This document shows, one piece after another, positions 4,963-31,740 of a stretch of 64,000 nt of DNA. The notes beneath the pieces are model-generated. The model was not told the DNA's origin and did no database searches. It saw nothing but the letters and a program-made list of their open reading frames with translations. This stretch comes from Alphaproteobacteria bacterium (lineage in GTDB: Bacteria; Pseudomonadota; Alphaproteobacteria; GCA-2731375). Made by a program: the position numbers and the translations under genes. Where the stretch lies: NCBI GenBank assembly GCA_016776605.1, contig JADHTB010000001.1, positions 310,001 through 374,000 of the forward strand, given 5' to 3'. Position 1 is the first letter of the stretch. Each line of letters starts with the position of its first letter.

Positions 4963-5436
4963 CTACTTCAGCGTCAGTAGATAGGCGAGGATATCCTCGA
5001 CCTCCTGCGCCTTCAGCACCGTCTTGTCCTTGAATTTTTTCAGGACGCGATGCAGACCGGCGGTACGATAAAATGCCGGCATGATAGTGTCTTTATTGAC
5101 GATGGTGGCATCCACCAGACGCAACCGAAGTTCGCCGGCACTGTAACGGCTTGCCACGCCGGCCAGGTCGGGGCCGATGTTGCCGTGGAACGACTGTTCC
5201 GGTATCGGCATGGCGTGGCAGGCAAGGCAGTTGCCTTTTTTTCGATGAATCGCCAGCCCGCGGCCCTTGGCCGCATCGCCCGGTTTTCCGGTCAGGGATT
5301 TCGCTATGCTCTCCCCACCCGTGACTTCATACTTGACCAACGCCACTCCGGCATCGGCCACAACCGGCATCGCGGCGGCCATGGCCACCACCGCAACCGC
5401 CATCGCGGATCTCAATACGGATATTCTAAAATTCAC
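4963..5436 (-). CDS. soxX: Monoheme cytochrome SoxX
   Basis: Small electron-accepting subunit of SoxAX. The 157-residue product has a signal peptide (about residues 1-29), one c-type heme site CLACH (Cys70, Cys73, His74) and a methionine (Met119, in TIMPAFYR) in the expected place of the axial ligand. Start is a GTG at 5436 with GGGGGAAG upstream. It is the first gene of the soxXYZAB-V operon; a plausible promoter lies at 5522-5550 on this strand. Confidence 0.92.
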   Translation of the reverse strand: MNFRISVLRSAMAVAVVAMAAAMPVVADAGVALVKYEVTGGESIAKSLTGKPGDAAKGRGLAIHRKKGNCLACHAMPIPEQSFHGNIGPDLAGVASRYSAGELRLRLVDATIVNKDTIMPAFYRTAGLHRVLKKFKDKTVLKAQEVEDILAYLLTLK

Positions 5437-5521
5437 GACTGCTTCCCCCTCGTATCACCATCGGCCAAACGCTCAGGACGTCCGACGCTGCGTCTCCCGG
5501 GCTCCTTGATTGGGAGCTCCT

Positions 5522-5550
5522 ATTATTTTTTTTGGATTCATTCTTCGCAA
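5522..5550 (-). promoter_or_regulatory. Candidate promoter of soxXYZABV
   Basis: Reading the minus strand, TTGCGA (complement of 5545-5550) is followed after 17 bases by AATAAT (complement of 5522-5527), a five-of-six match to a -10 box. It lies about 90 bases before the soxX start codon. A 13-base palindrome overlaps the -35 (next entry). The match is by eye; no start site is known. Confidence 0.4.
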
Positions 5551-5558
5551 TAATTGCG
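5546..5558. promoter_or_regulatory. Palindrome over the sox -35, possible operator
   Basis: Perfect 6-base arms around one central base (cgcaat-a-attgcg). It overlaps the proposed soxX -35 and lies in the divergent soxX/soxW region, a normal place for a sox repressor site. No regulator of the SoxR/ArsR type is encoded in the window, so the binding protein is unknown. Confidence 0.35.
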
Positions 5559-5726
5559 GCATGCCAGCAAATGACTGCTTACCTGCCAAAAGCGATCAGT
5601 TTTATTATTTTGCATAATATGCATTTTTTGGCAAGTATGAATCTGCTTACATTGCAACCACTGAATTGAACCGCAGCATTGCTCCAGCGGAAAGCGGCTG
5701 CGGGTTCACGGATTATGGAGAGCGAC

Positions 5727-6380
5727 ATGCTGATCTGCCGGCGCGTATGGTTACCAATGCTAACCCTGTGCCTTACCGTTCTGTTGGCCTCAATGACCAC
5801 CACGGCCGGTCTGCATGCGGCGGGGGGCAAAAAATTGCCCGAGGCGGAGGTCAATGACGAGGGCCTGCATGTCCAACCGTGGTTTCTGGATTCCTTTCTC
5901 GACCTGCGCGAAGACGCGGCCGAGGCGGCGGCGGCGAACAAACAATTGGTGATATTTTGGGAGCAACGCGGCTGCCCCTATTGTGCTGAGATGCACCGGG
6001 TCAATCTGCGCATTCCCGAAACGGTCGATTACATCACCAGGCACTTCGTGGTTTTGCAACTCAATCTATGGGGCGACCGCAAGGTCACGGATTTTGACGG
6101 CGAGGTGTTGAGTGAAAAAAAGCTGGCGCGCAAATGGCGGGTGCAGTTCACGCCGACGATCAACTATCTGCCCAAGGCCATGCCCGCCAATCAGCAAAAC
6201 GCCGGCCACGATTTAGAGGTCTGGCGCCTGATGGGTTATTGGAAGCCCTTTCATTTCCATCACAGCTTCGTCTACGTGCGCGAAAAGGGTTATGACAGTC
6301 AGCCCAATTTTCAGCGCTGGCTGCAAACCAAGGCGGAGGCGCTGCGGGCACAAGGCAAGGACGTCAAACTCTGGGACTAG
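5727..6380 (+). CDS. soxW: Periplasmic thioredoxin SoxW
   Basis: Thioredoxin-fold protein that receives electrons from SoxV and keeps the Sox carrier reduced. ATG at 5727 gives 217 residues and has GGAGAG immediately upstream; an ATG four codons earlier lacks a good site. A signal peptide spans about residues 1-31. The redox motif is WEQRGCPYC (Cys83, Cys86), and a second SoxW-type stretch (RVQFTPTINYLPK) holds the cis-proline region. It is divergent from soxX, and its end overlaps the end of the downstream convergent transporter gene by four bases. Confidence 0.88.
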   Translation: MLICRRVWLPMLTLCLTVLLASMTTTAGLHAAGGKKLPEAEVNDEGLHVQPWFLDSFLDLREDAAEAAAANKQLVIFWEQRGCPYCAEMHRVNLRIPETVDYITRHFVVLQLNLWGDRKVTDFDGEVLSEKKLARKWRVQFTPTINYLPKAMPANQQNAGHDLEVWRLMGYWKPFHFHHSFVYVREKGYDSQPNFQRWLQTKAEALRAQGKDVKLWD

Positions 6381-9421: not shown

Positions 9422-9922
9422 CTATGCCTCGGCGAACAGCAGCGCCAGTTCGCTGTCCTGCTGTTCTTCGAACACCTCGCTCAAGACCGGCAACAGGCCC
9501 ATTTCCTCTTTCTGGATATGGGTGATTTGCCGTTCCACCAATTCCAATGCCAGATCGCGGAACGCCGCCCACTCGTCCGCCGTGAAACCATCGCCGCGGG
9601 CCTTCTGAACCATGGGCAGCATGACTTCTGAAAGATTGCGCAGCAGGTCATGTTCCTGGCGCAACATATACGGGATCGCGACATCACCGATGGCCGTCAA
9701 TGCAGGGAAAATATTATCTTCCTCGAAGTTGAAATGATGTCCCGCCACGCCTTGCAATTCCGCGTTCAGATCGGCCAGTAGAATGGTGGTCGCCGCGTCA
9801 TCACCGGCAGGCGCGTTTCTTGCCTTTCGGCCCGTGGTAAGACCTTCCAGGCGATTCATCAAATCAATGATCCGCAAATGCTCGTCATGCAGCACCTGGG
9901 CAATCTGGCTGTCGTAATACAT
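9422..9922 (-). CDS. Hemerythrin HHE-domain protein
   Basis: A 166-residue cytoplasmic protein with the diiron ligand pattern of the hemerythrin family: HDEH near residues 12-15, GHHFNFEEDNIFP in the middle, EHDLL, and HIQKEEMGLLP near the C-terminus. Such proteins bind oxygen or NO, or store iron. GGGGAG precedes the ATG. It is the last gene of the minus-strand run that starts with the Crp/Fnr gene. HHE and DUF2249 proteins often occur together in NO and denitrification contexts, so a role in gas sensing or protection is likely. Confidence 0.85.
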   Translation of the reverse strand: MYYDSQIAQVLHDEHLRIIDLMNRLEGLTTGRKARNAPAGDDAATTILLADLNAELQGVAGHHFNFEEDNIFPALTAIGDVAIPYMLRQEHDLLRNLSEVMLPMVQKARGDGFTADEWAAFRDLALELVERQITHIQKEEMGLLPVLSEVFEEQQDSELALLFAEA

Positions 9923-10008
9923 TCCGTGCTCCCCGCAGCATCAATCATAAATCATAAATCCAGAACGCTAGGGTAACCGCGTCGCGCCGGAGGTTTCATT
10001 GATCGTGG

Positions 10009-11295
10009 TCAAGCAGACGGCGGCGCCACGGCGGTGCGGTATTTCAACACCGCCAAGAGGAAGAACCAGGTAAAAGCAGCCGCACCCAATAACCCCGCCA
10101 GGGCGCCCAGGTACACCAGCAAGGGCATGGGCCAGACAATCCCGGCGGATAGCAATACCAGTGCCGCGCAATGGCAATAAAGATGCGCGGCAAGCGGGCC
10201 GGGGGCGGTCAGCGCGGTCACGGTGGGGGGGCGGCGGCGCACGGCGAGGGCTGCATGCATAGACGCCAAAAACGGTACGATCCGCTGCAAAATCGCCAAC
10301 AAAAAGCCTAACAACCAACCGAACAGCCATAGGCCGAATATCACCGGCCCCCAGGGCGGAAGTAAGTCCAAGGCCCAGGCGATGCCCATTAACAGGCTCA
10401 AAGGCATTAAAGCCCACGACAAGCGCATTAAAATAAATGCCGGGCCCAATTTTTTGCGCATCCTTTGCCGCAAGGTCATGACCATCAGGCCCAGATACAG
10501 GGTAACCCCGATCAGGCCGACGGCGCCGCCCGCCGCGGCCCAGATATCCTGGTTGAACCAAGTCCCCGCAAGCCCCAGGGCCAGCCCGGCACAGGCGCAA
10601 AACATGGCCCCAAGCGCGCCTTTAACAGAGGGCATCGGCGCCAGGGCAAACATCGGCACCAGGACATAACTAAAACCCATGGCCAGCAACCCCATGAAGC
10701 CATAGGCAGCCAATAACATATGGCTCACCGCGCCGCGCTGGGCATTGGCCAGAAAGCCGTGCTCCTGATTAACGATCAGGATCAGGCCAAGCCCCAACAG
10801 CCCGACCAGGGCGCCGGCCGCCAGCCAGCCATGCGCCACCACCGCCAGCATGGCGCCGCCACGGCGCAAATTAGCCAGCAACAGCCACAGATAAAGGGCA
10901 ATGGCCAGCGCCAGCAGGCCGCCGCCTGCCGCCATTACCGGATGCTGGGACAGGTACATACCGGCGGTCAGGCAGATGGTGCCGGCGTTGAGCAACCACC
11001 AGATGGCGTTGATCGTGGCCGGGGCGGCAAAGCCCTGCAGGGTGGCGACGGGCAATAGTTGCAGGCTGGCGCCCATGGCGGTCATGACGAATACCCCCAG
11101 GGTCATCAGATGCACGGCGGCCAGCACCGGCCCACCGCCGCCCCTGAAAGCCGCTAATTCGTCTGCGCCGGACAACAGCACCGCCCAGGCCGCCAGATGA
11201 AATAATGCGGCCGCGCCGAAAAACCGAAAAGGCACGAACAGCGGCAGCAAACGTTCCCCCGCGCTGCCCAGGAATGAACTCGGAGCTAGAGCCAT
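10009..11295 (-). CDS. Polytopic membrane protein, NnrS/heme-copper-subunit-I-like
   Basis: A 428-residue, very hydrophobic protein with about 12 membrane segments. Histidines lie within or next to segments (AVHLMTLGVF, VVAHGW, AVSHMLLA, AAHLYCHC), a pattern seen in NnrS and in proteins distantly related to heme-copper oxidase subunit I. I cannot assign the exact family. It follows the DUF2249 gene and precedes the hemerythrin gene in one run; that trio recalls NO-response clusters. A role in heme or NO handling is inferred, and quinol or cytochrome chemistry is not excluded. Confidence 0.6.
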   Translation of the reverse strand: MALAPSSFLGSAGERLLPLFVPFRFFGAAALFHLAAWAVLLSGADELAAFRGGGGPVLAAVHLMTLGVFVMTAMGASLQLLPVATLQGFAAPATINAIWWLLNAGTICLTAGMYLSQHPVMAAGGGLLALAIALYLWLLLANLRRGGAMLAVVAHGWLAAGALVGLLGLGLILIVNQEHGFLANAQRGAVSHMLLAAYGFMGLLAMGFSYVLVPMFALAPMPSVKGALGAMFCACAGLALGLAGTWFNQDIWAAAGGAVGLIGVTLYLGLMVMTLRQRMRKKLGPAFILMRLSWALMPLSLLMGIAWALDLLPPWGPVIFGLWLFGWLLGFLLAILQRIVPFLASMHAALAVRRRPPTVTALTAPGPLAAHLYCHCAALVLLSAGIVWPMPLLVYLGALAGLLGAAAFTWFFLLAVLKYRTAVAPPSA

Positions 11296-22883: not shown

Positions 22884-24089
22884 ATGTCCAGTAAAATGAC
22901 GGAATCAAGATCCGAGGCGGGCCGGAAATTGGCTGGCGAGGCCTTGGATAACGCCCGTGCGGTAGCGGCGGTTTTGCGTGGCGCCGCGGATCAGATCGAG
23001 GCCGGGCGCGCCTTGCCGCCAGATGTGGTGGCGGCAATGCACGATGCCCAGCTGTTTCGCCTCACCTTGCCCAGGCGTCATGGCGGGGCCGAATTGCCAT
23101 TGCCTCAATTGACCCAGGTGGCAGAGATCATCGCCGGGGCCGATGCCTCCGCCGCCTGGTGTCTGGGCCAGGCATCGGGCTGTGCCATGTCCGCCGCCTT
23201 CATGGAGGAAGCCCCCGCGCGCGAGGTGTTTGACCCACGGGATGCGGTGCTGGCCTGGGGTGCGGGGGTTCAGGGCAAAGCGGTCGCGACCAAGGGGGGC
23301 TATCTGGTCAGCGGCACCTGGCGCTTTGCCTCCGGCAGCCATAACGCGACTTGGCTGGGCGGCCATAGCAAGATATTCGAGGCTGACGGCACGCCCCGGC
23401 CCGGTCCGCATGGCCGGCAGGCTGACCGCACGGCGCTGTTTCCCCGTGCCGAGATCAAAATGGCCGATGACTGGCATGTCATGGGCCTGCGCGGCACACG
23501 CAGCGAAGGTTACACGGTTGAAAACCTGTTCGTTGCCGAGGCTTTGACCCTGGACCGGGAGGCAGAGTCCGAACGCCAGGTAAATACGACTCTGTTCCGC
23601 TTTCCCACCACTACCGTTTATGCCTCCTTATTCTCCTCCGTCGCCCTGGGCATCGCCCGCGGCGCCCTGGATGATCTGTTGGCCCTGGGGTTGGAAAAAA
23701 GGCCCCGCGCCGCCCGCAGTTCACTGCGCGACAGCCCGGTCTTTCAAACCAGACTGGCCGAGCTTGAAGCCCAGCTTGGTTCCGCCCGGGCCTATCAGCA
23801 AAGCGCCGTGACCGACGTTTGGGAGGTGGTTGATGGGACCGGCGAACTAACCATGCCTGACAGGGCCCGCATTCGTCTGGCTACCACCTATGCCATCAAC
23901 GAGGCGACGGCGGTTGTGGAACAGGTCTACCGCCTGGCCGGCTCCACCGCGATCTTCAACGATCAACCGTTCGAGCGGCGCTTCCGCGATATCCACGCCG
24001 TTTCGCAACAGGTCCAGGCCCGGCATACCAATTATGAAACCGTCGGCCGCTATATGCTGGAACTGGATGTCGACACGATCTTCATGTAG
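22884..24089 (+). CDS. Acyl-CoA-dehydrogenase-fold flavoenzyme (monooxygenase-like)
   Basis: A 401-residue protein with the three-domain acyl-CoA dehydrogenase fold. The central GTWRFASGSHNATW and the WHVMGLRGTRSEGYTVENLFV stretches resemble the flavin-dependent monooxygenase branch (DszC, HpaB-like) more than beta-oxidation enzymes. No clear catalytic glutamate of acyl-CoA dehydrogenases is seen in the C-terminal part. AGCAGGAT lies just before the ATG. It is 99 bases upstream of the lipoate-assembly operon on the same strand; whether it belongs to it is unknown. Confidence 0.7.
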   Translation: MSSKMTESRSEAGRKLAGEALDNARAVAAVLRGAADQIEAGRALPPDVVAAMHDAQLFRLTLPRRHGGAELPLPQLTQVAEIIAGADASAAWCLGQASGCAMSAAFMEEAPAREVFDPRDAVLAWGAGVQGKAVATKGGYLVSGTWRFASGSHNATWLGGHSKIFEADGTPRPGPHGRQADRTALFPRAEIKMADDWHVMGLRGTRSEGYTVENLFVAEALTLDREAESERQVNTTLFRFPTTTVYASLFSSVALGIARGALDDLLALGLEKRPRAARSSLRDSPVFQTRLAELEAQLGSARAYQQSAVTDVWEVVDGTGELTMPDRARIRLATTYAINEATAVVEQVYRLAGSTAIFNDQPFERRFRDIHAVSQQVQARHTNYETVGRYMLELDVDTIFM

Positions 24090-24188: not shown

Positions 24189-25238
24189 ATGGGCGATTTC
24201 ATGAGCTGGCACGAAATAGCTTCCAATTTAGAGACATTCGCGGATTTAGAGTTGCAGTTTGACGCTGGCCTTGTCAGCCGCCTCGAACAGGCAGCGGGGA
24301 GCGGTCCTTTGCGGCCGATCCGGATGCACACCCCGACGTTTCGGTCATACGCCAGTGACGAAATCCAAGGCTGCGGCAAAAACAGTTTCCCTGCTTTTTC
24401 CATTACCGGGCCGGCCTGCGCGCTCAATTGCGATCATTGCCAGGCTAAAATTCTGGAGCCGATGATACCGGCAACCAGCCCGGACGAGTTGGACCAGCGG
24501 GTACGTGATATGATCCTGCTGCAAGACCTAAAGGGCTTCCTTCTTTCCGGCGGTTCGAACAAACGCAACGAAGTGCCCTATGACCGTTATCACGCCACGT
24601 TGGAAAAACTCAAGCGTGATTTCCCTTATCTGAAAATTGCCATGCATTCCGCTCTATTGGACGAGGCCAAGGCCAGATCGATGGAGGCGGCTGGCGTTGA
24701 TGTGGCCATGACCGATGTGATCGGCCATCAGGACACGATCCGCGATGTCTATCATCTGGACCGCTCGGTCGATGATTTCGAGGAAACCCTAAGGGCCTTG
24801 CGTTGCACCAGCATGAATGTGGTGCCCCATATTGTCATCGGCCTGCACTATGGCCGGATTTTAGGTGAATACAACGCGCTCGACATGATTGCGCGGCATA
24901 ATCCCGACAGCCTGGTTTTAGTCGTCGTCATGCCGTTCTATGCACCAGTGGAAAAACCTTTCGCCACCGTCGATCCAATCGAGGTCGCGGAGATCTTTAT
25001 CGCCGCCCGCCAGCGGCTGGCGGATAAGACGGTACAGTTGGGCTGCGCCCGGCCCGCGGGCCTGCATAAAATGCTGACCGACACTTATGCCACAATGGCC
25101 GGCCTGGATGGCATTGCCTTTCCCGCCGATGGGATTGTTGCGTTGGCGCGCGCCATTGGCCGGCCGGTCGATCAGCAACATGCCTGCTGTTCGATGGTGG
25201 TGGACGACGCCGCCGGCGAGATTACCTGCGCGGCATGA
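24189..25238 (+). CDS. lipS2: Radical SAM lipoyl synthase component LipS2
   Basis: A 349-residue radical SAM protein. The SAM-cluster motif is Cys77-x3-Cys81-x2-Cys84 (PACALNCDHC); Cys62 and the C-terminal HACC and ITCAA cysteines may hold an auxiliary cluster. In the LipS1/LipS2 pathway two radical SAM proteins together insert the two sulfurs into a protein-bound octanoyl group. The naming as LipS2 rests on gene order: read backward, sLpl-lipS1-lipT-lipS2 matches the order I recall from Hyphomicrobium. ATG 24189 or 24201 could start it. It overlaps lipT by 4 bases. Confidence 0.78.
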   Translation: MGDFMSWHEIASNLETFADLELQFDAGLVSRLEQAAGSGPLRPIRMHTPTFRSYASDEIQGCGKNSFPAFSITGPACALNCDHCQAKILEPMIPATSPDELDQRVRDMILLQDLKGFLLSGGSNKRNEVPYDRYHATLEKLKRDFPYLKIAMHSALLDEAKARSMEAAGVDVAMTDVIGHQDTIRDVYHLDRSVDDFEETLRALRCTSMNVVPHIVIGLHYGRILGEYNALDMIARHNPDSLVLVVVMPFYAPVEKPFATVDPIEVAEIFIAARQRLADKTVQLGCARPAGLHKMLTDTYATMAGLDGIAFPADGIVALARAIGRPVDQQHACCSMVVDDAAGEITCAA

Positions 25239-26326
25239 CGGCCATGGCGATGCGCCCCTTCGTCAACCAGGTGGATGTGGCCGTGGTCGGTCTGGGACCC
25301 GCCGGGGCGTCCGCCGCGGCCATTGCGGCCCAGGCCGGCCTTGGCGTGCTGGCTTTCGACCGCAAGAAAACCGCCGGAAAGCCGGTGCAGTGCGCCGAAT
25401 TCGTGCCGGCCATGTTAGGCCATGAAATCGGCGGAATAGACACCGTCGCACAGCAGCTGATTTATCGCATGCGCAGCTTTGTCGAGCAGCAGCAGCCCGA
25501 CGAGACGCCTGACTTTCGCGGTCATATGGTCGATCGTGATCGGCTGGACGCACAGCTTGTCGACCAGGCCCGTGCGATGGGCGCGAAATGCGAAATGGCC
25601 GTTGGCTTGGCGGAAATTGCCGGCGACGGCGTTCTCGAAACCACCGACGGCCAATGTTATCGGCCCCGCCTTTTGATCGGTGCCGATGGTCCTCATTCCA
25701 AAGTCGGCCGGGCGATCGGCTCGCGCAACGTGGCAATGGTTGAAACCCGGCAAATTACCGTACCGTTGCTGCAGCCCCATGATGCGACCGACATATTTCT
25801 GCGGGCGGATATTATTGGCGGTTATGGCTGGCTGTTTCCCAAGGGTGATGTTGCCAATCTGGGTCTGGGCGTGCTGCCGCAAGAACGGGCGCGCCTCAAA
25901 CCACTGTTGGACGAATTGCATCTTGCCCTGGCGGATCAGGGCCGGGTTGGACGGGACGTTCTGCAACATACCGGTGGTGCGATCCCGGTCGGCGGTATGC
26001 TCAAGTGTGTTGGTGATTTGCAAGGCGTCCCGGTGCTGCTGGCGGGTGATGCCGCCGGGCTTACCAATCCCATTACCGGGGCCGGCATTCCGGCTGCCAT
26101 TCAATCGGGTATGATGGCGGGTGCGGCGGCAAAAGCCTGGTTTGTCGACGATGGGCAGGCACTGGCGAATTATGAAGAAGAACTAGAAGATTTATTTCAG
26201 ACCTCGTTGGCGCGCGCCTGTCTGCGGCGCAACGAATTATTGGCTCAATATGCGCGATTCGAACAGCCTGACGCCGCCGCGTTGCGCCGTGGCTGGATTG
26301 CCTATGACGCATACTGGGCCGCTTGA
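25235..26326 (+). CDS. lipT: FAD-dependent oxidoreductase LipT
   Basis: A 363-residue flavoprotein of the geranylgeranyl-reductase-like family. The N-terminal VAVVGLGPAGASAAAIAA binds FAD; KPVQCAEFVP and the GDAAGLTNPITGAGIPAAIQSG motif are typical of the family. LipT proteins are linked to LipS1/LipS2 genes and are thought to supply electrons to the radical SAM steps. It is coupled to lipS2 by an ATGA overlap and lies 25 bases before lipS1. Without these neighbours it would only be called a generic FAD reductase. Confidence 0.78.
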   Translation: MTAMAMRPFVNQVDVAVVGLGPAGASAAAIAAQAGLGVLAFDRKKTAGKPVQCAEFVPAMLGHEIGGIDTVAQQLIYRMRSFVEQQQPDETPDFRGHMVDRDRLDAQLVDQARAMGAKCEMAVGLAEIAGDGVLETTDGQCYRPRLLIGADGPHSKVGRAIGSRNVAMVETRQITVPLLQPHDATDIFLRADIIGGYGWLFPKGDVANLGLGVLPQERARLKPLLDELHLALADQGRVGRDVLQHTGGAIPVGGMLKCVGDLQGVPVLLAGDAAGLTNPITGAGIPAAIQSGMMAGAAAKAWFVDDGQALANYEEELEDLFQTSLARACLRRNELLAQYARFEQPDAAALRRGWIAYDAYWAA

Positions 26327-26351: not shown

Positions 26352-27593
26352 ATGTCTTGTTCGGAAATGCCGCGCCAGGTGGCGCCGGATTTTGGCGTCG
26401 AGAAACGCCAAGACATGAACATCGCCAAGGAAATGCAGCCCCGCGTGCCGGACGTCGCGCCGAAAGACGTTCGCAATGGTGGCCGGGTCAAAGGCAACGA
26501 TGTGGCGGCAAAAGGTCTGTACCGCCCCGACTATCGGGTTCTGACGCCAAACATGCGTTCACCGGAATTTGTGCAGATGTCCACCGCCGCCGCGATCACC
26601 CTGGGTGTCGCGCCGGGAAAGATGTACCGCACCGGGTGTACCCGCTGCCTCAATCTGTTGTTGACCTATCCCGAAGGCTGCCGGGCGAATTGCGCCTATT
26701 GCGGATTGGCGCGGCATCGCGAGGCCGAGCGTGATTTCGCGGACCGTAATTTCATTCGCGTCGACTGGCCGGCGGTGCCCTACGACGATGTTCTGGACAT
26801 CATGGCGGCGGGCGGTGATCAGGGCCGGTTTCACCGCATGTGTATTTCGATGATCACCCATCCGAATTCCGACGCCGATACGGTGACGGTGTTGCGCCGG
26901 TGGAACGAAAGAATAAAACATATTCCGGTGTCGATCCTGTCGAACCCAACCACCATGCAGCGTCAGGATGTGCAGCAACTGCACGACCTTGGCGCCGATA
27001 TCTTTACCGTGGCCATTGATGCCGCCAGTCCAACCGTATTCGAGCGGACCCGTGGTTCCGGTGTCCAGTCGCCACACAGTTGGAAAAAATATTGGAGCAT
27101 CCTGGAACATGCGGCCGATATATTTGGCCCGGAAAAATTTGGCGCCCATTTAATCGTGGGCATGGGCGAGACCGAGTTTGATGTCCTTACTCAGGTGCAA
27201 AAGCTGCGTGACATGGGCGGTCACAGCCATATGTTCGCCTTTTTCCCCGAAAAAGGCTCGCTCATGGATCACTTGCCGCCAACCCCGCGCGGGCAATGGC
27301 GGCGGGTGCAACTGGCCCGGTATCTGATCGATTACCGCGGGGTAAAATTGGACCGGATGAGCTTTGACGAAGCCGGCCGGGTGACGAGTTTTGGTTTGCC
27401 CCAGGCGGAGTTGGACGCGATCATCGATGCCGGGACAGCCTTTCGAACCTCGGGTTGTCCGGGCAAGGAAGGTGAGGATATTTCCGCCTGCGACCGGCCC
27501 TTTGGTGATAGCCCGCCCAGCGACATCGCGTCCTATCCCTTCAAGTTGAACAAAAAAGATGTGGCCAAGGTTCGCCGCCAACTTGGCCCCTGA
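26352..27593 (+). CDS. lipS1: Radical SAM lipoyl synthase component LipS1
   Basis: A 413-residue radical SAM protein of the biotin-synthase-like branch. The SAM cluster motif is Cys110-x3-Cys114-x2-Cys117 (CRANCAYCG). Two more cysteines just before it (GCTRC, Cys96 and Cys99) and two near the C-terminus (Cys369, Cys380, followed by RPFGDSPPSD) are placed to bind an auxiliary cluster that donates sulfur, as in lipoyl synthases. GGGGAG precedes the ATG. It lies between lipT and the lipoate ligase gene, 36 bases before the latter. Confidence 0.82.
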   Translation: MSCSEMPRQVAPDFGVEKRQDMNIAKEMQPRVPDVAPKDVRNGGRVKGNDVAAKGLYRPDYRVLTPNMRSPEFVQMSTAAAITLGVAPGKMYRTGCTRCLNLLLTYPEGCRANCAYCGLARHREAERDFADRNFIRVDWPAVPYDDVLDIMAAGGDQGRFHRMCISMITHPNSDADTVTVLRRWNERIKHIPVSILSNPTTMQRQDVQQLHDLGADIFTVAIDAASPTVFERTRGSGVQSPHSWKKYWSILEHAADIFGPEKFGAHLIVGMGETEFDVLTQVQKLRDMGGHSHMFAFFPEKGSLMDHLPPTPRGQWRRVQLARYLIDYRGVKLDRMSFDEAGRVTSFGLPQAELDAIIDAGTAFRTSGCPGKEGEDISACDRPFGDSPPSDIASYPFKLNKKDVAKVRRQLGP

Positions 27594-27629: not shown

Positions 27630-29492
27630 ATGATTAAGCAGCCCTTTCGGGTTATCGATACGGGCCTTCGCGAAGCGCGAGCCAATATCGCGTTCGATCA
27701 GGCCTTGATCGATAGCCGCGGCCAGGACGCTATTCCAGATACCATCCGGTTTCTACGTTTTCCGCCATCCGCTCTCATTGGCGTGCATCAGGTGCTAGCC
27801 CATGAAGTTCGCCTGGATTATTGCCGCGAACACGGTATCCAGGTGGCGCGGCGGCTGACGGGCGGCGGCGCGCTGTTCATGGACGAAATGCAGCTTGGTT
27901 GGGAGCTGGTATTTGACCGCGCCGGTTTTCAACATGAACAGCCTACCGCCTTGAGCCTGGCGGCGTTCAGCGAACGGATTTGCCATGCCGCCGCCGCCGG
28001 CCTGCGCCGGCTTGGGGTCGATGCTGCTTTCCGCCCGCGCAATGATATCGAGGTAGCCGGCCGCAAGATCGGCGGCACGGGCGGTATTTACGATGGTCCG
28101 GTGTTGTTCTTTCAGGGCACGTTATTGGTCGATTTTGATCCCGCACGGATGATCTCCGCGCTGAAAGTACCGGCCCACAAGCTCGCCCGCCGCGACCTGC
28201 GCGAGGCCCGGGACCGGGTTGTCTGCCTGTCCGAATTATTAGGTGATGCGCTGCCGGATATGGCGGCAATTCAGCAGGCGCTGTTAGAGGGCTTTGCCGA
28301 GCACTTACAGATCGCGCCGCAATGGGGAGAGATCACGGAGGCGGAAGAAGCCCTGGCCCGCGATCTGTTGAAGGAGGAAATTGGCTGCGACGGGTTTGTC
28401 GATGGTATCGCGGTTCCGGAAAGCGGCGAAACCCACTTAAGCGCGACCTTGAACCTTGAAGGCGGCAGCATACGGGCGGATATTCGCGTCCCTGATGCGC
28501 GCCGGACCCGTATTCAGGAGATTTTGCTGACCGGCGACTACTTTGTCACGCCGCCACGGGCGATTTTCGATCTGGAAGCCCGTTTGCGGGGCGCCAGCCG
28601 TGAGGATTTTGCCGATATTGTTCGCAGCATGTTCGCGGATGGCGCCATTGAAGGCGTGGAACTGGGACCTGACGATTTTTGCCGGGCGATAGCTATGGCG
28701 TTTTGCCAGCTTTCGATTGTCAGCGACGGCAAGGTGCTGCGCGGGCATTTCATTGGTGCGCCCGCCACCACCGGCCCAACCTTGATATTCCTGCATGATG
28801 CGCTGGGCAGCAGCCGCGTTTGGCGCGACTTTCCCCATCGGTTGAGCCAGCGCACCGGTCTGCCGGCGCTGATCTATGATCGCCTGGGCGCGGGCGATTC
28901 CGACCCCCTGGAGCCCCCATTCGAGACGCTTTATATGCGCCAGGAGGCCTTGCGGACGCTGCCCGACGTCATCCGGGCCGCCGGCATCGAAGAGGCCATC
29001 CTGGTCGGTCACTCCGATGGCGGCACCATTGCGTTGACCTATGCCGGTACGGCGCCGCAAAAGGTGCGCGGCATCATCGCCATCGCGCCGCATTTATTCC
29101 GTGAACCACGCACCCTTGCCGCCATTCGCGAGCGGATCGCGGAGTTTGATGCGGGCGACTTAAGAGCGCGCCTGGCCCGTTACCACGGCAGCAAGACCGA
29201 CGCCTTGTTTCAACGGCTGGTGGAAACCTGGATGGCTAAAGATGCCCCAAATTGGGGTGTGGAACCTTACATTTCGCAATTGCATTGCCCCGTACTGGCC
29301 ATTCAAGGCGCCGAGGATGAGTATTTCTCGGCAACGCAATTGGATGCCATAGAGGCCGCTGTTCAGGGTCCCTTCGACAGACACATTATCCCCGAATGCG
29401 GCCATGTCCCCCATCATACCGCGGCGGACGAGGTGCTGGACAGCATGACGGATTTCATTACCCGCTGCCTCGCCTCCGACCCCAAAATCTGA
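27630..29492 (+). CDS. slpl: Lipoate:protein ligase sLpl(AB) fused to an alpha/beta hydrolase
   Basis: A 620-residue two-part protein. Residues 1-230 are an LplA-type ligase with RRLTGGGAL (74-82) and the substrate lysine Lys146 in GRKIGGTGG. Residues about 235-365 are the LplB-type accessory domain (ADIRVPDARRTRIQEILLTG). Residues about 370-620 are a complete alpha/beta hydrolase with nucleophile Ser462 (GHSDGG), acid Asp563 (GAEDEYF) and base His592 (ECGHVPHH). Known sLpl proteins end after the accessory domain, so the hydrolase is an addition. The frame is continuous and the hydrolase has no own start with a ribosome site that I can see. It probably attaches octanoate or lipoate to the target; the hydrolase substrate is unknown. 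Confidence 0.85.
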   Translation: MIKQPFRVIDTGLREARANIAFDQALIDSRGQDAIPDTIRFLRFPPSALIGVHQVLAHEVRLDYCREHGIQVARRLTGGGALFMDEMQLGWELVFDRAGFQHEQPTALSLAAFSERICHAAAAGLRRLGVDAAFRPRNDIEVAGRKIGGTGGIYDGPVLFFQGTLLVDFDPARMISALKVPAHKLARRDLREARDRVVCLSELLGDALPDMAAIQQALLEGFAEHLQIAPQWGEITEAEEALARDLLKEEIGCDGFVDGIAVPESGETHLSATLNLEGGSIRADIRVPDARRTRIQEILLTGDYFVTPPRAIFDLEARLRGASREDFADIVRSMFADGAIEGVELGPDDFCRAIAMAFCQLSIVSDGKVLRGHFIGAPATTGPTLIFLHDALGSSRVWRDFPHRLSQRTGLPALIYDRLGAGDSDPLEPPFETLYMRQEALRTLPDVIRAAGIEEAILVGHSDGGTIALTYAGTAPQKVRGIIAIAPHLFREPRTLAAIRERIAEFDAGDLRARLARYHGSKTDALFQRLVETWMAKDAPNWGVEPYISQLHCPVLAIQGAEDEYFSATQLDAIEAAVQGPFDRHIIPECGHVPHHTAADEVLDSMTDFITRCLASDPKI

Positions 29493-29683
29493 CGCTCCAG
29501 AAGCCCCAACAGCCGCTAAACCGCCATAAACCTTAGTCCTGTTTTGGCGATCCAGCACTTGGGTTGATTGTTTGGCATGCCGCGTTCGCCTATTTCTGCA
29601 GCATGAAATCTGGTGAAAAATACTCCGCCCGTCGGCCAGCGTGCGCGGACGTCGAGGGCGGCGGAGAGGTTAAGGTCAAGCTC

Positions 29684-30805
29684 ATGGCCAAGGTCATGAT
29701 TTGGGATCTGCCGCTCAGGTTGTTCCATTGGTTGATGGTGGCGACCGTCGCCATCGCAGGAATTACGGGGTTTGTCGCGCCGGCAGCATGGTTGGATATC
29801 CACCTGTTCGCGGGATACGCTTTGGCAATACTTTTGGCCTTTCGTTTGGCCTGGGGCGTCCTGGGCAGCTATTATAGCAGGTTCAGGTCATTCCCGCTGG
29901 CGCCGCGATCCGCCTTTCGCCATCTCCGTTCCCTCCTGCGGAACAGCGCGGCGGCGCATACGGGCCACAATCCCGTCGGGGCCTGGATGATCATTGCCGT
30001 TCTTTTCCTGTTATTGGCACTCGTGCTGAGCGGGTTGATCGTGCTTGGAGGCCAGGAAAATCTGGGGCCACTTGGTTTTCTGGTGGATTTTCAGACCGGC
30101 TGGCGCGCAGCGGCGCTGCATGAGATCGCCGCCTGGGGTCTTGCCGGCGCCATTGCCGTTCATCTGCTGGGGGTTTTTGTTGAAGCCCGCCTGCTTCGCC
30201 ATCCCGTAGTGTCGGCAATGATTACCGGCAACAAGCTGGTTACCCGCGCGAAGGCGAAAGGCCAGGGACGGTCGTATAAGGCGCGGGGCCTGACACTGTT
30301 CACCATCGCGGCCCTGATGCTGCTTGGCGGCGGAAAAATGCTCGCCAGCATTCCCGCCTCCGGCTGGAAACCGGTCCAGACGCCCGCGGTATATTCGGCT
30401 GAGTGCGGCGACTGCCACGACGCTTATCACCCTAGTTTGCGGACCGCGGCATCCTGGCGCGGCATAATGTCGGGCCTTTCAGACCATTATGGTGAAGATG
30501 CCTCGCTGGATGCGGAAACGGCGGCGGCCATGGGAGCATTCCTCGCCGCCAACGCAGCGGAAACGTTCGATACCGAGGCCGCCTGGCGGATGGGGCGGAT
30601 CGACACGAAATCTCTGCGCATAACGGATACGCCATACTGGACGGCGCGCCATGCCGGCATTGCCGACGGTGTCTTTAAGCTGAGCAGCGTTGGCTCAAAG
30701 GTAAATTGCAACGGCTGCCACCGGGATGCGGCGTCCGGCCGATTTGCTGACCAGGATATTCACCTACCCAACCTATCGAAGCTACCGAATGGAAGCCAAA
30801 AATGA
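29684..30805 (+). CDS. Cytochrome b fused to a diheme cytochrome c (DHC-like) domain
   Basis: A 373-residue protein from ATG 29684 (40 more open codons upstream look non-coding). Residues 1-190 are a four-helix cytochrome b561-type domain with histidines 15, 40, 146 and 160 as heme candidates. A further membrane segment (about 203-220) leads to a periplasmic domain with two heme sites, Cys241-His245 and Cys342-His346. This tail resembles the free DHC encoded two genes later (shared GEDASLDA, LRIT-TPYW). In Rhodobacter the b cytochrome, SHP and DHC are separate. It overlaps shp by 4 bases. Confidence 0.84.
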   Translation: MAKVMIWDLPLRLFHWLMVATVAIAGITGFVAPAAWLDIHLFAGYALAILLAFRLAWGVLGSYYSRFRSFPLAPRSAFRHLRSLLRNSAAAHTGHNPVGAWMIIAVLFLLLALVLSGLIVLGGQENLGPLGFLVDFQTGWRAAALHEIAAWGLAGAIAVHLLGVFVEARLLRHPVVSAMITGNKLVTRAKAKGQGRSYKARGLTLFTIAALMLLGGGKMLASIPASGWKPVQTPAVYSAECGDCHDAYHPSLRTAASWRGIMSGLSDHYGEDASLDAETAAAMGAFLAANAAETFDTEAAWRMGRIDTKSLRITDTPYWTARHAGIADGVFKLSSVGSKVNCNGCHRDAASGRFADQDIHLPNLSKLPNGSQK

Positions 30806-31242
30806 AGATACGCATCATCGTCCCCCTCCATCCAAAGTTGATCATTGCCGTATTGGCGCTTTCGCTACTGCCAATCCAGGGCTCGGCGTCGGAATTACGC
30901 CAGCAGATCATTGCCGGATTTGCCCAGGACGCTAAATTAAAGAATAGCGGTTTTGCCGGTTTTTCGGCCGGGCGGGGACAGACGTTATTCCTATCCAAGC
31001 CGGCAACCGGAAAACCGGACACGCCGTCATGTACAACCTGTCATAGCATCAACCCGGCGGCGAAGGGCCAGACCCGCGCCGGCAAGGAGATCGCGCCGAT
31101 GGCGGTTTCAAAGACGCCGGAGCGGTTTACCGACAGCAAGAAAGTCGAGAAATGGTTCCGCCGGAACTGCAAAAGCGTCCTGGGGCGGATCTGTACCGCG
31201 TTGGAAAAAGGCGACTTCGTAACCTTCATGAGTAATCAATAA
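30802..31242 (+). CDS. shp: SHP-type monoheme cytochrome c (DUF1924)
   Basis: A 146-residue exported cytochrome (signal about residues 1-30) of the SHP family, which binds oxygen or NO at its heme after loss of an asparagine ligand. The heme site is CTTCH (Cys77, Cys80, His81). The C-terminal pair RNC and RIC would form the family disulfide. An asparagine that follows the heme site (SINPAAKG) is a candidate distal ligand. It overlaps the cytochrome b gene by 4 bases and precedes DHC, its usual electron donor. Confidence 0.85.
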   Translation: MKIRIIVPLHPKLIIAVLALSLLPIQGSASELRQQIIAGFAQDAKLKNSGFAGFSAGRGQTLFLSKPATGKPDTPSCTTCHSINPAAKGQTRAGKEIAPMAVSKTPERFTDSKKVEKWFRRNCKSVLGRICTALEKGDFVTFMSNQ

Positions 31243-31263
31243 CAGATCACAAGGAGTGTAATT

Positions 31264-31740
31264 ATGTTGATGAATTCAAAGACATACATCGCCGCCGCAT
31301 TCGTGGCGCTGGCCTTTGGCGCACCGGCCCAGGCGGATGAACGGTATGCGCCAGTGCGCGATCAGACCGTCATAAAGGAATGCGGCGCCTGCCACATGGT
31401 GTTCCAACCGCAAATGCTGCCGGCAAAATCCTGGTCAAAGATTGTCGATGGCTTGGCCAACCACTTTGGTGAAGATGCGTCCCTGGACGCCGATACGGCC
31501 AGGCAGATCAAGGCATACCTTGTGAAGGACGCGGCGGACGCAGGTTGGTGGGGCGGCAAATTCATGCGCGGCCTGTCCAAAACCTCCGCCCCCTTGCGCA
31601 TCACTGAAACGCCCTATTGGGTGCGCGAACACAACGAAGAGGTGCCGCAACGGGCCTGGAGCGATCCCAAGGTCAAATCGAAGGCAAATTGTTTGGCTTG
31701 TCATTCTCGTGCCGACAAAGGTAATTACGATGACGATTGA
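31264..31740 (+). CDS. dhc: Diheme cytochrome c DHC
   Basis: A 158-residue exported diheme cytochrome with a signal peptide (about residues 1-24). Heme sites are CGACH (Cys40-His44) and CLACH (Cys143-His147). DHC reduces SHP in Rhodobacter. Its spacing of hemes and the GEDASLDA and LRITETPYW stretches are shared with the C-terminal domain of the cytochrome b two genes upstream. AAGGAG lies 9-10 bases before the ATG. It is the third gene of the cytochrome operon. Confidence 0.87.
   Translation: MLMNSKTYIAAAFVALAFGAPAQADERYAPVRDQTVIKECGACHMVFQPQMLPAKSWSKIVDGLANHFGEDASLDADTARQIKAYLVKDAADAGWWGGKFMRGLSKTSAPLRITETPYWVREHNEEVPQRAWSDPKVKSKANCLACHSRADKGNYDDD

Follow-up and report, generated by a model that had tools for sequence, protein, structure and literature searches.

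The 64,000-nucleotide stretch analysed here (the window; contig JADHTB010000001.1 of assembly GCA_016776605.1, positions 310,001 to 374,000) raises the question of why a lipoate:protein ligase of the sLpl(AB) type should run on, in the same chain, into an alpha/beta hydrolase. It had to be established whether the fusion is real and what the hydrolase half might do for the ligase. The gene and its parts are as follows.

27630..29492, plus strand: fused gene, sLpl(AB)-type lipoate:protein ligase and alpha/beta hydrolase, 620 residues (translation, Pfam, NCBIfam; order repeated in 12 other genomes)
27675..28298, plus strand: LplA/B catalytic domain, residues 16-223 (Pfam LplA-B_cat PF21948, 1.4e-39)
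27849..27869, plus strand: RRLTGGG motif, residues 74-80 (translation, conservation in 47 proteins)
28065..28067, plus strand: Lys146 in a GRKxxGT motif (conservation in 47 proteins)
28461..28700, plus strand: LplB-type accessory domain, residues 278-357 (NCBIfam NF053749, 9.1e-8, 32.2 bits, cut-off 65)
28737..29483, plus strand: alpha/beta hydrolase domain, about residues 370-618 (Pfam, phmmer, Foldseek on a model)
29013..29015, plus strand: Ser462, predicted nucleophile, in GHSDGG (12/13 fused, 38/38 stand-alone proteins)
29316..29318, plus strand: Asp563, predicted triad acid (13/13 fused, 38/38 stand-alone)
29403..29405, plus strand: His592, predicted triad base (13/13 fused, 38/38 stand-alone)

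The single open reading frame was translated without any internal stop. In its ligase half, Arg74, Arg75, Thr77 to Gly80 and Lys146 were at least 95% conserved across 47 ligase halves (8 fused, 39 unfused), and Lys146 is, by its motif position and from the role known in LplA, presumably the catalytic lysine. The match to the LplB small subunit is weak, falling under the NCBIfam cut-off. The hydrolase begins almost directly after this domain, at about residue 370, and was matched by Abhydrolase_1 (residues 383-517, 7e-19) and Abhydrolase_6 (residues 385-604, 3.8e-17) of Pfam; it has the fold, the Ser-Asp-His triad and the oxyanion motif of the alpha/beta hydrolase superfamily. A first-pass annotation, made from the letters alone, had already described an LplA-type, an LplB-type and a hydrolase domain in this frame. 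The RRLTGGGAL motif and Lys146 were found where it had placed them, its domain content agrees with Pfam and NCBIfam (the LplB part weakly), and its Ser462-Asp563-His592 triad aligns with identical residues in all 38 stand-alone relatives.

The fusion of ligase and hydrolase was confirmed as real. The same domain order was found in 12 further genomes, with 53-74% identity along almost the full length, which rules out an assembly error or a chance read-through at the joint near codon 365. The first-pass annotation had named such an error as the main threat to its fusion claim, and had advised a search for proteins of the same domain order; the claim holds, and the search brought the total to 13 genomes with that of the window. 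Four belong to the window's class, presumably Alphaproteobacteria (G000, which is the window's genome, G005, G015 and G208) and nine to the family of G755 (G754, G755, G935, G996, G1152, G1153, G1157, G1167 and G1176). The window, G015 and G755 belong to three different orders. A pattern search in the genomes of 84,980 species, which detects close relatives only, gave two matches, L007 and L008; their genomes are G754 and G755, metagenome-assembled genomes (MAGs) with records titled Burkholderiales and Nitrosomonadales.

In the sampled genomes the fusion occurred in 3 of 61 relatives, 2 of 15 members of the window's own order, 4 of 385 of its class and 1 of 398 of its phylum, the last being the window itself. 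It was present in 4 of 349 genomes of the order of G755 and in 9 of 98 of its family. These samples overlap, and those of the relatives, the order, the class and the phylum all include the window. Since an unfused ligase was found in 43 further genomes of the order of G755, the fusion is a minority form; the E-value limits of the searches were strict (1e-60, 1e-65, 1e-60 and 1e-100), so that the unfused counts are lower bounds. Spread on plasmids was considered and rejected: tblastn against 72,556 plasmid records gave 125 matching records, none of which covered 80% of the query.

Phylogenetic trees were used to trace the origin of the two halves. The 13 fused ligase halves formed one group against 40 unfused ligases (support 98/90), and the 13 fused hydrolase halves formed one group against 38 stand-alone hydrolases (support 100/100). 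Trees with 8 fused proteins agreed, with support of 98/88 for the ligase and 100/99 for the hydrolase. Because the fused proteins form a single group in both trees, a single fusion event is indicated, which was kept, the two halves being inherited together. The hydrolase alignments and trees were built without L123 and L125, which repeat parts of fused proteins already in the count, and without the fragment L035; the ligase sets were built without a second, partial match in L080 (28%). The ligase of L074 (30% identity, very long branch) was kept in the tree with 8 fused proteins and left out of the conservation count and of the alignment and tree with 13.

The surroundings of the gene point to the lipoate pathway of sulfur oxidizers. 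Three genes precede it on the same strand, the fused gene lying directly 3' of them.

24189..25238, plus strand: LipS1, one of two lipoyl synthase proteins (NF053742, 1.7e-57, 195 bits, cut-off 230)
25235..26326, plus strand: LipT-like flavin adenine dinucleotide (FAD) oxidoreductase of the geranylgeranyl-reductase family (TIGR02032, 3.1e-50, above cut-off)
26352..27593, plus strand: LipS2, the other lipoyl synthase protein (NF053743, 3.2e-57, 194 bits, cut-off 270)

The scores of both LipS1 and LipS2 are under the NCBIfam cut-offs. The order matches the lipS1-lipT-lipS2-slpl(AB) order given for Hyphomicrobium denitrificans in the portion of PMC10332631 available to us, and the LipS1/LipS2 setting proposed in the first-pass annotation is thus borne out. 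The fusion stands directly behind lipS1-lipT-lipS2 in 4/4 genomes of the window's class. Within the family of G755, lipS2 was not directly beside the fusion in the stretches fetched for the nine genomes, and in four of the nine (L008, at 5329-6108, L007, L115 and L161) the fusion directly follows a short-chain dehydrogenase gene. In G996, contig L147 (1405-12193) carries LipS1-LipT-LipS2-LbpA-sHdr without a ligase gene of its own, the fusion sitting on another contig.

The genomes also hold the expected partners. In the window's genome, LbpA and an sHdr cluster lie on a separate contig, C28, and this LbpA is 59% identical to that of G755. LbpA and LipB were present in 8/8 fused genomes tested, LipB being a separate gene in 12/12 genomes examined. 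Apart from LipB, the fused protein was the sole LplA-family protein in 7/8 fused genomes; for the window's genome, a search with the whole protein revealed no second ligase at E 0.001, and family searches gave the fusion and LipB only. A further, weaker third LplA-family match was seen in G996. G010, a genome of the window's genus that lacks the fusion, has a strongly diverged unfused ligase, at 30-32% identity, next to sHdr genes (L074, 9385-10465).

Like the sLpl(AB) of H. denitrificans and Thioalkalivibrio sp. K90mix, the window protein combines an LplA catalytic domain, with RRxTGGG and GRK motifs, and an LplB-type domain (below the cut-off) in one chain, its gene is linked to lipS1, lipT and lipS2, and its genome has LbpA and sHdr genes. 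In contrast to the unfused relatives studied here, from which the comparison is drawn rather than from the two named proteins, its chain of 620 residues does not end after the LplB-type domain and continues with a 250-residue hydrolase. We take such an ending as a usual trait of sLpl(AB), not a defining one. It was found in 39 of 40 unfused relatives, which end at 344-370 residues by script-chosen start codons, in line with what the first-pass annotation had said of sLpl ligases; the length and neighbour counts leave out 17 of the 43 unfused proteins from the order of G755. The only exception is L078 of G395 (about 9440-11090), an sLpl with a C-terminal DUF116 (PF01976, 3.3e-10); its locus reads lipS1-sLpl-lipT-lipS2 and adjoins sHdr genes. 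It is likewise a C-terminally extended sLpl in a lip locus, the added domain being DUF116 and not a hydrolase. A split pair, with the hydrolase gene adjoining sLpl in unfused species, was rejected, as none was detected at E 1e-6 in 21 loci, some of them cut by contig ends.

In order to judge whether the hydrolase half is likely to be active, its residues were compared with those of its relatives. Asp563 and His592 are kept in 13/13 fused proteins and Ser462 in 12/13, so that 12 of the 13 have the full triad, across at least three orders and at about 53% identity; all three residues are present in the 38 stand-alone proteins. Stand-alone members of the family, such as L002 of the window's own genome and the solved structure 9l75, share with the fused half the triad and the HxxLG oxyanion motif, at 35-47% identity. 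The nucleophile elbow is SDG in 37/38 of the stand-alone proteins and SVG in 9l75. Apart from its own branch in the tree, the fused half differs in three positions fixed in 13/13 fused and 0/38 stand-alone proteins: Leu530 for Trp, Phe566 for Gly/Ala and Arg529 for Gly/Ala. Leu530 and Phe566 hint at an altered pocket, and the three changes are read from sequence as a sign of a changed substrate, though lineage effects may produce the same pattern, as the 13 proteins share one origin.

AlphaFold models were built from three sequences each for the whole chain and for the hydrolase half. The model of residues 362-620 reached a predicted local distance difference test score (pLDDT) of 77.9 and a predicted template modelling score (pTM) of 0.80, and its best Foldseek match was PDB 9l75 (8.7e-23), which was also matched by phmmer (9l75_A, 2.8e-39). 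The whole-chain model had a mean pLDDT of 49.1 and was not used, so the mutual placement of the two active sites was not read from it. The entry 9l75 is titled 'A novel PE hydrolase'; a literature search on it returned no related paper, and the PDB neighbours of the fused hydrolase gave no substrate for it.

The stand-alone relatives offer a further clue. A benzoate-CoA-ligase-like gene adjoins the hydrolase in 17 of 39 stand-alone loci (L035 included; an 18th match, L049, at 26%, not counted), and the window's family contributes 13 of these 17, the query's own locus being one. This is a second pairing of the hydrolase family with an acid-adenylating enzyme. The window's genome has a stand-alone paralogue whose gene immediately follows that of an AMP-binding acyl-CoA ligase on contig C13 (L144, 7559-9965). 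For three plasmid-borne stand-alone relatives, the named genes around them had no common theme.

On these grounds it is tentatively proposed, as a reading that falls short of an even chance, that the fused protein has two functions in assembling lipoate for sulfur oxidation by the sHdr pathway, its hydrolase splitting an acyl donor to provide the ligase with octanoate. In Thioalkalivibrio K90mix, the characterised sLpl(AB) accepts free octanoate or lipoate only, and not octanoyl groups from acyl carrier protein (ACP), according to the accessible parts of PMC6067878 and PMC10332631. Because LipB occurs in all the fused genomes tested, octanoyl-ACP is presumably made, and because the ligase needs the free acid, a hydrolase on its chain would close this gap. 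Octanoate would be released by cleavage in the hydrolase half, the most probable donor being octanoyl-ACP or some other octanoyl thioester or ester; with ATP, the ligase half would convert it to octanoyl-AMP and attach it to LbpA, after which LipS1/LipS2 would insert sulfur. Hydrolysis plus ATP would thus achieve what LipB does by direct transfer. The octanoyltransferases LipB and LipM work in a single step, without hydrolase or ATP, and reach the same overall result as proposed here, from octanoyl-ACP to octanoyl-protein. The more specific version is possible but doubtful: a single-chain, two-step octanoyltransferase, arisen by fusion, in which octanoate released from acyl-ACP or another octanoyl donor is at once re-activated with ATP and loaded on LbpA, supplying the starting octanoate of the sLpl(AB)-LipS1/S2 pathway. 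The pairing with acid-adenylating enzymes speaks for octanoate supply, and the shared inheritance of both halves, the kept triad, the hint of an altered pocket and the place of the fused protein as sole LplA-family member besides LipB in 7/8 genomes would favour it.

Several observations weigh against octanoate supply. No such hydrolase was found near the ligase in 21/21 unfused loci (20 with 11-20 kb of sequence, one with 4 kb; E 1e-6; some at contig ends, e.g. L068 and L074, with one side not visible); as a rule the locus can thus do without a hydrolase step. The lipY gene of such clusters, a putative fatty acid transporter, offers another possible octanoate source (PMC10332631, in part), and the K90mix enzyme was concluded to scavenge only, without a role in de novo assembly (PMC6067878, in part). 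The closest solved relative, 9l75, is by its title no known thioesterase. Asp463, directly after the nucleophile in 13/13 fused and 37/38 stand-alone proteins, would correspond to D123 of human valacyclovir hydrolase, which also follows the nucleophile and neutralises the amino group of the substrate (PMC4198189, in part); the analogy recalls amino-ester specificity, and octanoate has no amino group. Lastly, the fused protein of G1153 (L162, 8706-10463) has an in-frame gap of 17 codons that takes out Ser462 and its surroundings, the rest being kept.

This last case is what would support a catalytically idle fold, serving as a structural or protein-binding domain. Such a role is very unlikely, given the full triad in 12/13 proteins, and the deviating copy, present on a single contig, may reflect faulty assembly of that MAG. 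A substrate unrelated to lipoate, possibly amino-bearing, with the shared chain serving co-expression or stability, would suit Asp463 and the four loci in the family of G755 where the fusion follows a dehydrogenase gene outside a lip operon. We regard this as improbable, since all four fusions of the window's class are directly behind lipS1-lipT-lipS2 and most genomes with the fusion have no other ligase of this kind.

The remaining alternatives keep the hydrolase within lipoate biology, where the sequence evidence fits both ideas of the first-pass annotation, the release of octanoate or lipoate and the stripping of wrong acyl groups, and favours neither. It is unlikely, yet deserves weight, that the hydrolase repairs lipoyl groups, acting on acyl adducts of lipoylated or mis-acylated LbpA. 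A precedent is ABHD11, a serine alpha/beta hydrolase that is a glutaryl-lipoyl thioesterase and, unlike the fused half, a separate mitochondrial protein (PMC12643935, in part). Through its expected binding to the same carrier protein, the ligase half would bring the hydrolase to its target, and the absence of the hydrolase near unfused ligases is compatible with repair. On the other hand, ABHD11 was not named among the best 60 of 120 or the best 60 of 103 PDB matches, no direct comparison with it having been made, and the stand-alone relatives often adjoin acyl-CoA ligases, none having been seen beside lipoylated enzymes, though no search was aimed at those. Scavenging is, in our estimate, a minor possibility: the hydrolase would free lipoate or octanoate from imported esters or amides, or attack lipoyl proteins in the manner of a lipoamidase, its product being re-used by the ligase. 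The ligase takes lipoate as well as octanoate, it was viewed as a scavenging enzyme in the part of PMC6067878 at hand, and the nearest solved enzyme bears the title of a PE hydrolase. Yet these genomes carry LipS1/LipS2 synthesis genes, a lipoamidase on the chain of the ligase would drive a futile cycle, and the lipoamidases among the literature matches listed are, by paper title, an amidase-domain enzyme and sirtuins.

Further neighbours of the operon were noted in the window. Just 5' of lipS1 lies an HsaA/SfnB-like flavin monooxygenase or acyl-CoA dehydrogenase gene (22884-24089, plus strand), of which no counterpart was detected in the regions surrounding the fusion of G005, G015 and G208. 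Just downstream of the fused gene (29564-31740, plus strand) are genes for a cytochrome b561/diheme cytochrome c, a DUF1924 protein and a SorB-like diheme cytochrome, possibly an electron-transfer unit.

No description of a ligase-hydrolase fusion was found by title or abstract opening among the literature matches listed, most subscription papers and the domain-architecture databases lying outside the search. The word 'hydrolase' is absent from the main text of PMC10332631, and 'thioesterase' from PMC10332631, PMC6067878 and PMC9585515. The first-pass annotation had considered its point void if the fusion proved widespread and already described; it is a minority form for which the literature searched held no description. 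The fusion is a real, conserved and, by these searches, undescribed domain combination in a known pathway. Free octanoate is the starting point of the sLpl(AB)-LipS1/S2 pathway, and the only hint at its source in the literature, as far as the papers were available, is lipY, the putative fatty acid transporter. The conserved fusion is a direct candidate for the intracellular production of octanoate or else for a repair activity towards lipoylated LbpA in sulfur oxidation. Either function, if true, would extend the pathway, and the function in the fused species would indicate which separate enzyme to seek in the unfused ones.
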